A stretch of 64,000 nt of DNA from Roseobacter sp. HKCCD6576-2. GTDB lineage: Bacteria > Pseudomonadota > Alphaproteobacteria > Rhodobacterales > Rhodobacteraceae. Of this stretch, positions 32,038 to 35,251 are shown one piece after another. The position numbers were made by a program, and so were the translations under genes. Where the stretch lies: assembly GCF_013179285.1 (NCBI RefSeq), contig NZ_WVNW01000005.1:62001-126000 (forward strand). The letters are read 5' to 3'. Numbering within the stretch: position 1 is the stretch's first letter; each line of letters opens with the position of its first letter. Below the pieces are notes generated by a model. The model was not told the DNA's origin. It searched no databases and worked only from the letters and a program-made list of their open reading frames with translations.

Positions 32038-32100
32038 CCATTGCATTCAATAATAAGAGGATTATTCTATCGGAACGTGCGAATTCGGGGAGTTTCGACT

Positions 32101-32487
32101 ATGAGTTTCGATATGGCGCCGTCCGTCAATGTCTTGGGCGGCACGCTGCAAAGCTGTTCCAAAGATCCGGTCACAGGCTTCTTTCGCAATGGATGCTGCG
32201 ACACCGGCCCGACCGATCATGGCTCGCACACGGTCTGCGCCGTGATGACGGCGGAGTTCCTCGCCTTCTCGAAATATGTCGGCAATGACCTCAGCACGCC
32301 GCGCCCGGAATATGGCTTCGCGGGGCTGAAGCCGGGCGATCAATGGTGCCTTTGCGCCACTCGCTTCCTGCAAGCCCATGAAGAAGGCGTCGCGCCGCGG
32401 GTCAATCTTGCGGCCACCCATAGTGGTGCGTTGGCGATTGTGCCGCTGCCGGTTTTGCAGCTCTACGACTTGAACGAGGACGCATAA
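32101..32487 (+). CDS. DUF2237 family protein
   Basis: A 128-residue protein of DUF2237. The conserved line is NVLGGTLQSCSKDPVTGFFRNGCC, then DHGSHTVCAVMTAEFLAFSK, KPGDQWCLCATRF and NLAATH. Several cysteines and histidines are conserved and could bind metal. The start at 32101 has gggag upstream. It lies 63 bases after DUF2332 in the same direction. Function is unknown in the family. Confidence 0.85.
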   Translation: MSFDMAPSVNVLGGTLQSCSKDPVTGFFRNGCCDTGPTDHGSHTVCAVMTAEFLAFSKYVGNDLSTPRPEYGFAGLKPGDQWCLCATRFLQAHEEGVAPRVNLAATHSGALAIVPLPVLQLYDLNEDA

Positions 32488-32494
32488 GCGGCCC

Positions 32495-33010
32495 CTACTC
32501 CGCCGCGACGACCCCGTCGCCCATCAGATCATCAACAAAGACGCTGAGCAGTTGCGGCCGTCCCGTGACACCCGCCTTACGGTAAATTGCGTTGGTTTGC
32601 GCCTTAACCGTGCCCTCGGAGGTCGCGCGTAGGGCGGCAATCTCCGACAGGCTCATCCCCTTCAGGGCAAAAAGCGCCACGTCCCGCTCTGCGGGCGTGA
32701 GTTTCCACTCGTCAAAACGCTCCTCAACCAAGTCCATAAACGCACCAGAGGCAGCGCGGAGCGCCCGCTCCGCCGCGCGCGTCCGACGCAGCGCGGAGCG
32801 CAACAACAACGCCCCGAGAACGACGCCAAGGATCAGTCCAACGCCCGCCCCGATCTCAATCAACTCATGAACTTGCCAGGGGATGGGCGCGAAAGGCAGG
32901 CCCAAAACGGACATCATGATTTCCGACACAAAGAAAACCGCGCAGAGCAACTGCACGACAAGGATCACGACAAAAACGACCGGGCGCCTCAACATCTCCA
33001 AACGTCCCAC
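32495..33010 (-). CDS. Membrane-anchored LuxR-type helix-turn-helix regulator
   Basis: A 171-residue protein with two N-terminal membrane segments (VVFVVILVVQLLCAVFF, about 11-27, and GAGVGLILGVVLGALLL, about 53-69) and a C-terminal GerE/LuxR DNA-binding domain at about 100-165 (LTPAERDVALFALKGMSLSEIA, then EGTVKAQTNAIYRKAG). There is no receiver domain, so the signal must come through the membrane part or a short linker. The likely start is the GTG at 33010, nine bases after the stop of the upstream poly-aspartate gene; an ATG at 32995 is an alternative. It appears to be the third gene of the operon with the two exported acidic proteins. Confidence 0.82.
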   Translation of the reverse strand: MGRLEMLRRPVVFVVILVVQLLCAVFFVSEIMMSVLGLPFAPIPWQVHELIEIGAGVGLILGVVLGALLLRSALRRTRAAERALRAASGAFMDLVEERFDEWKLTPAERDVALFALKGMSLSEIAALRATSEGTVKAQTNAIYRKAGVTGRPQLLSVFVDDLMGDGVVAAE

Positions 33011-33019
33011 ATCACCATC

Positions 33020-33427
33020 TCAGTCGTCGTCACCATCGTCGTCGTCATCGTCATCATCGTCGTCGTCATCATCGTCATCATCATCATCGCCGCCACCATT
33101 ACCGCCGCCCGCCTGTCCGCCACGTGACCCGGACTGATCATCGTCATCGTCCGACGCCCCAAACAACCCGGTTGTGTAGTCGCGGAGGATCAGGCCGTTG
33201 CGCGGATCAAAGACGACCTCGCGGGATTGATCACCACGCCGCGCGATGATCCGCACGCGACCCAAAAGGGTTCGGTTCATCCGCTGAACAGTGTATCCCT
33301 GATCCCGAAGCTGCGCGACGACTTGGTCTGTGACGGTCGATTGCGCGGTGGCCGACCCAGCCCCCAACACCACGGCAAATCCCGCGGCAAGCATGTCTCT
33401 GCGTGTCACCATCTTCGTCGACCTCAT
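33020..33427 (-). CDS. Exported PepSY-like protein with poly-aspartate tail
   Basis: A 135-residue protein. The N-terminus (MVTRRDMLAAGFAVVLGAGSATA) is a signal peptide with a twin-arginine-like TRRDM, cleaved near ATAQS. Residues about 30-95 (VTDQVVAQLRDQGYTVQRM, then VRIIARRGDQSREVVFDP and NGLILRD) look like a PepSY-type small domain. After a glycine-rich linker, the protein ends in 18 consecutive aspartates, a glycine and three more aspartates. Such a tail should be unfolded and bind Ca2+ or other cations. The ribosome-binding site (ggggagga) lies inside a stable hairpin at 33435-33472. Precise function unknown. Confidence 0.75.
   Translation of the reverse strand: MRSTKMVTRRDMLAAGFAVVLGAGSATAQSTVTDQVVAQLRDQGYTVQRMNRTLLGRVRIIARRGDQSREVVFDPRNGLILRDYTTGLFGASDDDDDQSGSRGGQAGGGNGGGDDDDDDDDDDDDDDDDDDGDDD
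33023..33088 (-). repeat. GAY trinucleotide repeat encoding aspartate run
   Basis: Twenty-two codons, all GAC or GAT except one glycine codon (GGT), encode the acidic tail of the first exported protein. Such triplet runs are prone to length change by replication slippage without breaking the frame. Confidence 0.9.
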
Positions 33428-33434
33428 CAAAAAT

Positions 33435-33472
33435 GATCCTCCCCGGCCTGCGCTACGCCGCCGGAGAGGATC
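33435..33472 (-). promoter_or_regulatory. Stable intercistronic hairpin that buries a ribosome-binding site
   Basis: On the minus-strand RNA, GAUCCUCUCCGG pairs with CCGGGGAGGAUC over 12 bp (one G-U) with a 14-base loop. The right arm is the ggggagga ribosome-binding site of the poly-aspartate gene starting at 33427, and AUUUUUG follows the stem directly. It could act as a partial terminator between the two acidic genes, as a translation brake, or both. Confidence 0.7.
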
Positions 33473-33500
33473 TCTGCCATCTTAACCCCATTGGCGGGTT

Positions 33501-33764
33501 TTAGTCATCGTCGTCGTCATCATCATCGTCGTCATCATCGTCATCATCATCATCGTCGTCGTAATCATCATCGTAATCGTCATAGTCGTCATCAGACGCA
33601 TCACGACTGCCGTCGCCCCGCAGCCATTCCGGAAGCCAGTTCTGGGCGATCTCTTCATAGGTATTGGCGTGCTCTTCTTCGGTCTCGATGCTCTGCACCA
33701 AGGCGCCATGGGCCGTGCCACTCAAAAGCATTGCGATCATTGCGGCTGTCAGTGTCTGTTTCAT
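33501..33764 (-). CDS. Small exported protein with poly-aspartate tail
   Basis: An 87-residue protein. Residues 1-21 are a Sec signal peptide (KQTLTAAMIAMLLSGTAHGA). A short middle part (ALVQSIETEEEHANTYEEIAQNWLPEWLRGDG) is followed by an acidic tail of about 30 residues in which aspartate runs are interrupted by tyrosines, ending with 19 aspartates before the stop. The ATG at 33764 has gaggag upstream. It is the first gene of the likely three-gene operon. No family was recognised. Its exported, disordered, strongly anionic tail points to cation binding or a periplasmic sink. Confidence 0.7.
   Translation of the reverse strand: MKQTLTAAMIAMLLSGTAHGALVQSIETEEEHANTYEEIAQNWLPEWLRGDGSRDASDDDYDDYDDDYDDDDDDDDDDDDDDDDDDD
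33504..33593 (-). repeat. GAY trinucleotide repeat with tyrosine interruptions
   Basis: About 30 codons of mostly GAC/GAT with three TAC/TAT interruptions encode the tail of the second acidic protein. The final 19 are uninterrupted aspartate codons. Length polymorphism between strains would be expected. Confidence 0.9.
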
Positions 33765-33953
33765 CTCACAACTCCTCATTTGGTTCGGCCCCAACCCATG
33801 TGCGACCTTGCCTCTACAGAAGACCAAACACTGAGGCGGCTCTATTTCCGCGAGGTTTAGGCGCGGACACGTAAACCCAAAGCCAATCTAGCATCTGTGA
33901 AAATCGTCAGAAATAAACCGAGGTTGATGCGGCAGCGGATCAGCATCACCTCG

Positions 33954-33991
33954 CCTGAACCGCCCTAAACCAAAGGTTTAGGCCGTTCAGG
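33954..33991 (-). terminator. Long hairpin downstream of trpB
   Basis: CCTGAACCGCCCTAAACC faces GGTTTAGGCCGTTCAGG with a three-base loop; the arms pair over about 17 bases with one bulge. It lies 34 bases beyond the trpB stop. There is no adjacent U run, so termination may depend on Rho or the hairpin may protect the transcript end. Confidence 0.55.
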
Positions 33992-34024: not shown

Positions 34025-35251
34025 TCAGTGCCCGTTCATCTCGAAGCCCAAGGCCCGCGCGACGGTGAAGATATCTTTGTCCCCCCGACCGCACATATTC
34101 ATGATGATCAGGTGATCGCGCGGCAGGTCCGGGGCGATTTTCATCACATGGGCCAGCGCGTGGGACGGCTCAAGCGCCGGGATGATCCCTTCCTGCGCGC
34201 AGGACAATTGGAACGCCTCCAGCGCCTCCGCATCCGTGATCGAGACATATTGCGCGCGGCCAATCTCATGCAGCCAGGAATGCTCCGGCCCGATGCCCGG
34301 ATAATCCAAGCCCGCCGAGATCGAGTATCCCTCAAGGATTTGCCCATCATCATCTTGGAGCAGATAGGTCCGGTTGCCATGCAGCACGCCGGGCCGCCCA
34401 CCGGTCAGCGACGCGCAATGCTCCATCTTGGCATTCACGCCCTTACCGCCGGCCTCAACACCGATGATCTGCACCTCTTTGTCATCAAGGAACGGAAAGA
34501 ACAGGCCCATCGCGTTTGACCCGCCGCCGATGGCGGCGATGATTGTATCCGGCAGACGGCCCTCGGCGGCCATCATCTGTTCCTTGGCTTCCTTGCCGAT
34601 GATCGCCTGGAAATCGCGGACCATCGCCGGATAGGGATGCGGGCCCGCCACCGTGCCGATGCAATAAAATGTGTCGCGCACATTGGTCACCCAATCACGC
34701 AGCGCATCGTTCATCGCGTCTTTCAGCGTGCCCCGACCGCTCGTTACTGGGATCACTTCGGCCCCAAGCAACCGCATCCGGAACACATTCGGTGCCTGAC
34801 GCTCCACATCATGGGCGCCCATATACACCACGCATTTCAGCCCGAATTTGGCACAGACGGTGGCCGTGGCCACGCCATGCTGCCCCGCGCCGGTCTCGGC
34901 AATGATCCGGGTCTTCCCCATGCGACGGGCCAGGATGATCTGCCCTAGCACATTATTGATCTTATGCGCGCCGGTATGGTTCAACTCGTCCCGTTTGAGA
35001 TAAATCTTTGCCCCACCCAGATGCTCAGTCAGGCGCTCCGCGAAATAGAGCGGCGAGGGGCGACCGACATAATGGGTCCAGAGATCGTGCATCTCGTCCC
35101 AGAAGCTCTGATCCGTCTTGGCGAACTCGTATTGCTTCTCCAACTCCAAGATCAGCGGCATCAGCGTTTCAGAGACAAACCGCCCACCGAAATCGCCAAA
35201 GCGCCCGTCTTCATCGGGGCCGGTCATGAAGCTGTTGAAGAGGTCGTTCAT
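34025..35251 (-). CDS. trpB: Tryptophan synthase beta subunit
   Basis: A 408-residue PLP enzyme. The N-terminus [17 protein letters not shown] is family-typical, and the PLP lysine is near residue 97 in [18 protein letters not shown] forms the phosphate cup, and the [13 protein letters not shown] segment is conserved. It condenses indole with serine to give tryptophan. Its start overlaps the GNAT gene stop by four bases. The partner trpA is distant at 16249-17040. Confidence 0.96.

Follow-up and report, generated by a model that had tools for sequence, protein, structure and literature searches.

A probable operon for polyaspartate-tailed exported proteins and a membrane LuxR-type regulator in Rhodobacteraceae, a possible autoregulated envelope sensor

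In ToxR-like one-component regulators, a winged-helix DNA-binding domain at the N-terminus is joined to a single membrane helix and a periplasmic sensor domain. According to the accessible parts of the literature, ToxR/CadC-type regulators, with their ToxS-like partners, combine an inner-membrane DNA-binding protein with an adjoining gene for an envelope partner, and the locus described here does likewise. UipA is described, in the parts of its source available, as a uranyl- and iron-binding PepSY protein with tandem PepSY domains and a membrane anchor, encoded beside the UipRS two-component system. Lanpepsy (LanP) is a periplasmic, metal-binding protein with two PepSY domains, and the accessible text on it mentions no regulator partner. 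In Caulobacter, the CaBP-SigV circuit uses a sigma factor; neither PepSY nor polyaspartate is mentioned in the accessible part of its description. Finally, EMRE, a subunit of the mitochondrial calcium uniporter channel, carries a C-terminal polyaspartate tail of 5-7 Asp outside the inner membrane, within a Ca2+-sensing assembly with EF-hand proteins (PMC4892889, accessible part).

We have analysed a locus from Roseobacter sp. HKCCD6576-2, in a window of 64,000 nucleotides (the whole stretch of DNA under study). It consists of three genes:

33501..33764, minus strand: gene A, an exported protein of 87 residues with an Asp-rich C-terminal tail (D19) and no PepSY domain left
33020..33412, minus strand: gene B, an exported protein of 130 residues with a PepSY-like domain at about residues 23-81 and the tail D18-G-D3
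32495..33010, minus strand: the regulator, two membrane helices and then a GerE helix-turn-helix, with the ATG at 32995 as the likelier start

An earlier note on this DNA had described two exported poly-Asp proteins together with a membrane LuxR-type regulator, and we found the three open reading frames at these positions with the tails that it gave, D18 plus D3 in B and, in A, D19 after a Tyr-interrupted acidic stretch. Both proteins begin with export signals, a signal peptide in the case of A. Across all six frames of the window, a residue is repeated nine or more times in a row in D18 and D19 alone, their antisense Ser readings aside. B starts at the ATG at 33412; the gap between A and B is 88 nt and that between B and the regulator 9 or 24 nt, and this spacing, with the conserved gene order, indicates that the three genes probably form one operon. 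On its two sides lie what we take to be a trpB-like gene (34025-35251) and a convergent DUF2237-like gene (32041-32487). Neighbour clusters were seen at like positions in 43 and 38 of the 80 loci that represent the best 80 of at least 579 relatives.

In comparison to ToxR/CadC, the regulator has a C-terminal GerE helix-turn-helix, two helices, scarcely any periplasmic part, and PepSY-like and polyaspartate partners. As far as the accessible text on UipA goes, both loci pair a PepSY or PepSY-like protein that bears a negatively charged element with adjoining regulator genes, but where UipA has its tandem domains, anchor and two-component pair, we find a single domain with a tail and a one-component regulator. 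LanP is a periplasmic PepSY protein, as B is predicted to be. The regulator, a membrane LuxR-type protein, stands in the place of the sigma factor of the CaBP-SigV circuit, and with EMRE the likeness is in the tail and its surroundings, for which we do not claim homology.

The regulator has 171 residues from the GTG at 33010 or 166 from the ATG at 32995; the ATG is probably the true start because the closest relatives begin there (MLKRP). The GerE match reaches 26.3 bits against a Pfam cut-off of 23.5, which places the protein among those with a LuxR/GerE helix-turn-helix. Among Pfam matches at E up to 1, we detected neither the receiver domain of NarL/FixJ response regulators nor, ahead of the helix-turn-helix, the autoinducer-binding domain of quorum-sensing LuxR proteins, and the N-terminal part is taken up by membrane helices. 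The protein has two hydrophobic segments (19-residue means of 3.05 from residue 11 and 2.27 from residue 50), and its AlphaFold2 model, with a mean pLDDT of 88.1, contains two long helices, 3-36 and 45-101; segments and modelled helices agree with two membrane helices. Hydrophobicity, model and Pfam scan concur with the earlier description of a regulator with two membrane helices and no receiver domain. Since its GerE domain is C-terminal and the two modelled helices are separated by about 8 residues, the regulator was rejected as a member of the ToxR-like type. On the periplasmic side, P42 (160/165), W45 (164/166), E49 (164/167) and E52 (154/167) are conserved. In the first membrane helix, Gln20 is present in 154/154 rows of the alignment and Cys23 in 142/158; they may have a part in redox chemistry or in holding a cofactor. 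The nearest curated model, that of the NCBIfam LIC13292 family, covers the helix-turn-helix part (residues 74-163) with 64.3 bits, far under the family cut-off of 200, so we did not assign the regulator to this family, on which our search found no paper. The regulator sequence matched none of the solved structures searched; its closest named relatives among the matches listed are Boseongicola sp. H5 (90% identity) and Roseicyclus.

We then looked at how the unit is distributed. A scan of named genomes yielded at least 579 relatives of the regulator, the best 80 of which were analysed as loci. In 79 of these 80 Rhodobacteraceae loci, B lies directly upstream of the regulator, and the 80th locus begins at a contig edge. 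Across 295 Rhodobacteraceae genomes, relatedness ignored, 130 have the regulator together with B, 45 have it without B, one has B alone (G232, E 7.6e-8) and 119 have neither. The regulator is matched in 175 of the 295 at E 1e-15; in a set of 61 genomes, own genome included, 28 have a match at E 1e-3, some of them weak. Co-occurrence, which the earlier note had proposed as a check, is what we observed for B and the regulator, which are kept together in 79/80 loci (best 80 of at least 579) and in 130 of the 131 genomes that have B. By these comparisons the A-B-regulator set is an old unit. In two loci, L182 and L220, we observed two tandem regulator genes on the same strand with a B-like gene upstream of each, a local duplication of the unit.

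Among 240 genomes of the class as a whole, a homologue of the regulator occurs in 14, of which 3 belong to the same family and 11 to others. In five of the ten other-family loci that we examined (L262, L263, L264, L269, L270), a small PepSY protein is encoded upstream. A Pfam-confirmed cytochrome b561 precedes the regulator homologue in three loci (L263:784-1437, L264:876-1451 and L268:930-1454), and in L263 and L264 the small PepSY gene comes before cytochrome b561; by eye, cytochrome b561-like open reading frames are also seen in L269 and L024. In what we call type 2 relatives, the PepSY protein is small and for the most part lacks a long tail; where they belong to other families, cytochrome b561 is found nearby. 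The own genome also contains a paralogue pair on contig C23 (L002:1474-2302), which consists of a regulator and a small PepSY_2 protein, above the Pfam cut-off and without a long acidic tail.

The PepSY_2 match of B in the window has 17.7 bits, under the Pfam cut-off of 24.3; at E up to 0.1, PepSY is found in 25/79 and PepSY_2 in 17/79 of the B homologues. The PepSY-like domain that had been noted in one of the exported proteins is upheld in so far as weak matches recur among homologues, but in B itself the match does not reach the cut-off. The homologue alignment (A2, from which row L019, in a wrong frame, was left out) has the conserved pattern RTLLGRxRI...REIVxNPRTGEILRD in the domain, and the RTLLGRxRI motif is present in B of the window. 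The modelled domain consists of a helix and four strands with a pLDDT of about 97, and the tail has low confidence. In a fold comparison, PepSY-type structures were retrieved (4exr, Z 7.2; 5boi, 6.4; 4k61, 6.0; 4hbr, 5.9; 9a5z, 5.6), interspersed with unrelated chains at Z 6-7.4, and Foldseek with the same fold returned zero matches at E 0.001. When solved structures were searched with the B sequence, acidic tracts and chance matches were all that was retrieved. A PepSY fold is plausible for the model of B. There is a single PepSY-like domain in B, so it does not belong with the tandem-PepSY proteins UipA and lanpepsy.

Following the general definition of a Tat-like twin-arginine motif, we found such an RR motif in the signal of 48/79 B homologues and of 4/53 A homologues (best 80 of at least 579 loci); with a stricter motif, 45 B and 1 A remain from the same sets. 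In the window, this motif belongs to the following feature:

33341-33412, minus strand: signal of B, with a Tat-like twin-arginine motif

These motifs suggest that B may be exported in a folded state.

Gene A of the window is an exception among its relatives, in which A usually has a PepSY domain. No PepSY match was found in it by Pfam at E up to 1 or 0.1, nor an EF-hand domain, and its close relatives L003 and L004 have PepSY in A. With a profile of our own, A has PepSY in 53 of the 80 loci (best 80 of at least 579). The remaining 27 A positions of this set, sorted by eye, comprise 2 EF-hand proteins, 10 acidic proteins without a detected domain, 4 low-complexity proteins that are not strongly acidic, and 11 at which no A was found, several of these loci ending at contig edges. 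One locus counted as having a domain-less acidic A, L051, lies at a contig edge and may retain part of a PepSY domain.

What is common to nearly all these proteins is the charge of the tail. A net charge of -10 or lower was calculated for all 53 A tails and 74/78 B tails, together 127/131 (best-80 loci of at least 579; the truncated L099 omitted). The Asp to Glu ratio is 2247:295 in A and 2064:321 in B. Four of the 78 B tails lie above -10, with a net charge of 0 in L096. L017 and L031 have, at the same position, B-like proteins with Gly-rich, hardly acidic tails, which are natural controls for the role of the tail. In the window's own genes, both Asp codons are in use (GAT/GAC 16/13 for A and 16/16 for B) and their order is no more clustered than in shuffled sequences (P 0.24 and 0.29), which speaks against a recent single-codon expansion of the Asp runs.

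The domains differ in charge: those of A are net acidic (mean -3.85, n=53, 48 negative) and those of B basic on average (+2.2, n=78; 59 positive, 12 negative). Such a distribution would suit an electrostatic tether, in which the acidic tails hold the basic domain of B, or another basic envelope partner, together with the regulator, and free cations are not the signal. According to the accessible part of its source, the EMRE tail does bind a polybasic stretch of MICU1 (PMC4892889), but the tails described here are far longer than that of EMRE, the 12 negative B domains do not fit, and the EF-hands found in A's place (see below) point to Ca2+; we consider a tether unlikely. The tails could also be loosely constrained disordered extensions that serve for solubility or as spacers, the signal, for example redox or heme, being read by PepSY and the membrane helices. 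Their length and make-up vary widely among relatives, some being Gly/Ser-rich, cytochrome b561 occurs in some distant operons, and Gln20 and Cys23 are strongly conserved in the first membrane helix; but almost all tails are highly charged and Asp-biased, and an acidic tail persists where the PepSY of A was lost or swapped. The probability of spacer tails is, in our opinion, low, a little below that of the tether.

In four genomes, the gene at the position of A encodes a signal peptide, paired EF-hand-like loops and an acidic tail (L040, L073, L127/L201 and L142). When the tail was removed, L040, L073, L142 and L201 were each above at least one Pfam EF-hand cut-off; with the tail kept, L040 was above the cut-off, L073 below it, and for L142 there was no match up to E 0.01. 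We built a tree of 167 distinct regulators by pooling named and unnamed loci, two sets with genomes in common (L040 and L145 stand for one genome), and dropping identical regulators. The EF-hands are found in 4/167 of these loci and are scattered over a tree that is weakly supported; since the tree is weak and the pairs look alike, they may come from one replacement event. What speaks most strongly for a cation role is that EF-hands can take the place of PepSY on a tail that is still acidic; this favours Ca2+, an idea to which the replacement in four genomes gives circumstantial support. In Yoonia sediminilitoris (L070:6301-6624), a small exported EF-hand protein is encoded about 0.8 kb downstream of the regulator, with a PepSY-type A upstream.

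A metal other than calcium (a lanthanide, iron or a uranyl-like ion) might be sensed or buffered instead, as with lanpepsy and UipA. The accessible texts report that lanpepsy binds lanthanides with low-micromolar constants, although E. coli cells did not bind more La or Tb because of it, and that UipA, encoded beside the UipRS genes, binds uranyl via a negatively charged PepSY face; the B domains are mostly basic. None of the eight EF loops has Pro at position 2. This residue is a hallmark of lanmodulin. Across the 295 genomes, PQQ alcohol dehydrogenases, a rough lanthanide proxy in which XoxF is not separated from the others, were associated neither with the regulator (odds ratio 1.39, p 0.24) nor with B (1.29, p 0.37; Fisher p-values that ignore relatedness). 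We therefore dropped a lanthanide link by this route, a result that counts weakly against lanthanides, and consider another metal very unlikely.

Between A and B, we observed a further feature:

33435..33472, minus strand: hairpin in the A-B gap, with a 13-bp GC-rich stem

The 88-nt gap folds with z -3.39, and z is below -2 in 34/54 A-B gaps. No T-run was flagged by our script in any of the 54 gaps. A consensus scan gave no sigma-70 match and did not flag the A-B hairpin; it gave three weak terminator-like sites within the regulator gene. The hairpin may lower the output of B and the regulator in comparison to A.

Upstream of A, three sequences were retained:

33854..33877, minus strand: GGTTTA-N12-TAAACC dyad, a candidate operator whose exact copy is unique in the 4.41 Mb genome
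33914..33927, minus strand: TCAACCTCGGTTTA, by upstream comparison a degenerate copy of the family's TAAAC-N4-GTTTA dyad
33966..33980, minus strand: TAAACC-N3-GGTTTA palindrome, its exact copy also unique in the genome

The N3 palindrome is, by our count, one base longer in spacing than the usual N4 dyad of the family, of which the own genome contains no exact copy. Sequence was lacking for 1/53 A upstreams and 3/26 upstreams of loci in which B comes first. Both half-sites, GTTTA and TAAAC, are present at fixed spacings in 50/52 upstream regions of A. These 52 regions contain 36 pairs TAAAC-N4-GTTTA, 26 pairs GTTTA-N12-TAAAC and 32 pairs in which an upstream GTTTA is followed by TAAAC 33 bases on. 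The dyads, as full or half-sites, also precede genes at the A position without PepSY, and in loci with sequence and no A they precede B in four of five (L042, L050, L062 and L086, not L071). Of six type 2 promoters, that of L020 has the exact N4 dyad and those of L002 and L021 the variant TAAACCTTCGGCCTA; L022, L023 and L024 (3/6) have neither. In L023 and L024, the promoters of the small PepSY genes show, by eye, an ATAAGC...GCTTAT-type dyad-like sequence in the place of TAAAC/GTTTA.

In the 752,116 bases of the best 80 of at least 579 loci, all 88 exact dyads are located no more than 2.6 kb upstream of the regulator, in regions that make up about 28% of these bases, and zero exact dyads were found elsewhere. 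Because all 88 fall upstream of the regulator operon, the dyads suggest a dedicated autoregulatory site of the A-B-regulator operon, which would probably be bound by the regulator itself. We also searched for a wider regulon. Across 37 genomes, forward matches numbered 31 for one half-site pattern and 30 for the other, of which 7 and 6 fall at a regulator operon, and the reversed-pattern control gave 129 and 141; in the own genome, with one mismatch allowed, the forward patterns matched at 4 and 2 places and the reversed ones at 11 and 4. Matches being below the reversed-pattern control in both searches, a regulon beyond the operon was rejected.

An operon that controls only itself would also suit a defence against peptides, in which A and B are acidic decoys that the regulator induces when cationic peptides displace divalent cations. 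The large negative charge of the tails would be appropriate for a decoy, but the replacement by EF-hands at the position of A is not what a decoy would lead one to expect, no defence gene came to our notice in an unsystematic view of the flanks, and we regard this role as improbable.

The earlier note had proposed that the acidic tails bind Ca2+ or other cations in the periplasm and that the membrane regulator reads this state; the control of the operon by itself is an addition to that proposal. The reading that we prefer, at a little under an even chance, is that of a self-contained, autoregulated envelope sensor made of the membrane LuxR-type regulator, its partner B and Asp tails that depend on cations, most likely Ca2+. 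In this model, the regulator would sit in the inner membrane and bind the TAAAC/GTTTA dyads at the promoter of its own operon. B would be its dedicated exported partner, the mostly basic PepSY domain of which would touch the short periplasmic face of the regulator (P42, W45, E49, E52), and from A and the tail of B would come polyaspartate chains, long and disordered, that change their state with cations, Ca2+ being the likeliest. A shift in cations would change the way in which the tails hold B, which would switch the regulator and reset the production of A and B, so that their products would be detector and buffer at once. Owing to the A-B hairpin, A could be produced in greater amounts than B and the regulator. 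We infer the contact between the regulator and B, the binding of cations by the tails and the direction of control. Against this sensor model stand the four B tails above -10 and the four A-position proteins that are of low complexity and not strongly acidic, the presence of EF-hands in so few regulator loci, perhaps by one event, the type 2 relatives, mostly without a long tail and with half of their promoters lacking the dyad, and the degenerate N4 dyad of the window itself.

That no described system with this composition was recognised, as previously noted, agrees with our literature search, which covered mainly freely accessible papers, some of them in part, and found no description of the A-B-regulator unit among these. 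As far as we have seen, the parts are of known kinds, and what is undescribed is their combination, the swap of PepSY for EF-hands with retention of the acidic tail, and a candidate operator dedicated to this unit. Two points are new, the conserved TAAAC/GTTTA promoter array and the EF-hand pairs that replace the PepSY of A. A bolder proposal, which we find possible though rather unlikely, is that disordered polyaspartate, interchangeable with EF-hands, is the detector in an undescribed class of envelope calcium sensors, in which a PepSY-coupled LuxR-type regulator controls its own operon only, so that sensor and buffer form a closed loop, one that is common in Rhodobacteraceae.

Little is understood of the ways in which bacteria sense calcium and other cations in the envelope. 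The compact unit described here joins exported proteins with polyaspartate or EF-hands to a transcription factor in the membrane, for which a candidate binding site can be recognised; the unit can be tested with reporters and could show how a disordered polyanion acts as a sensor.
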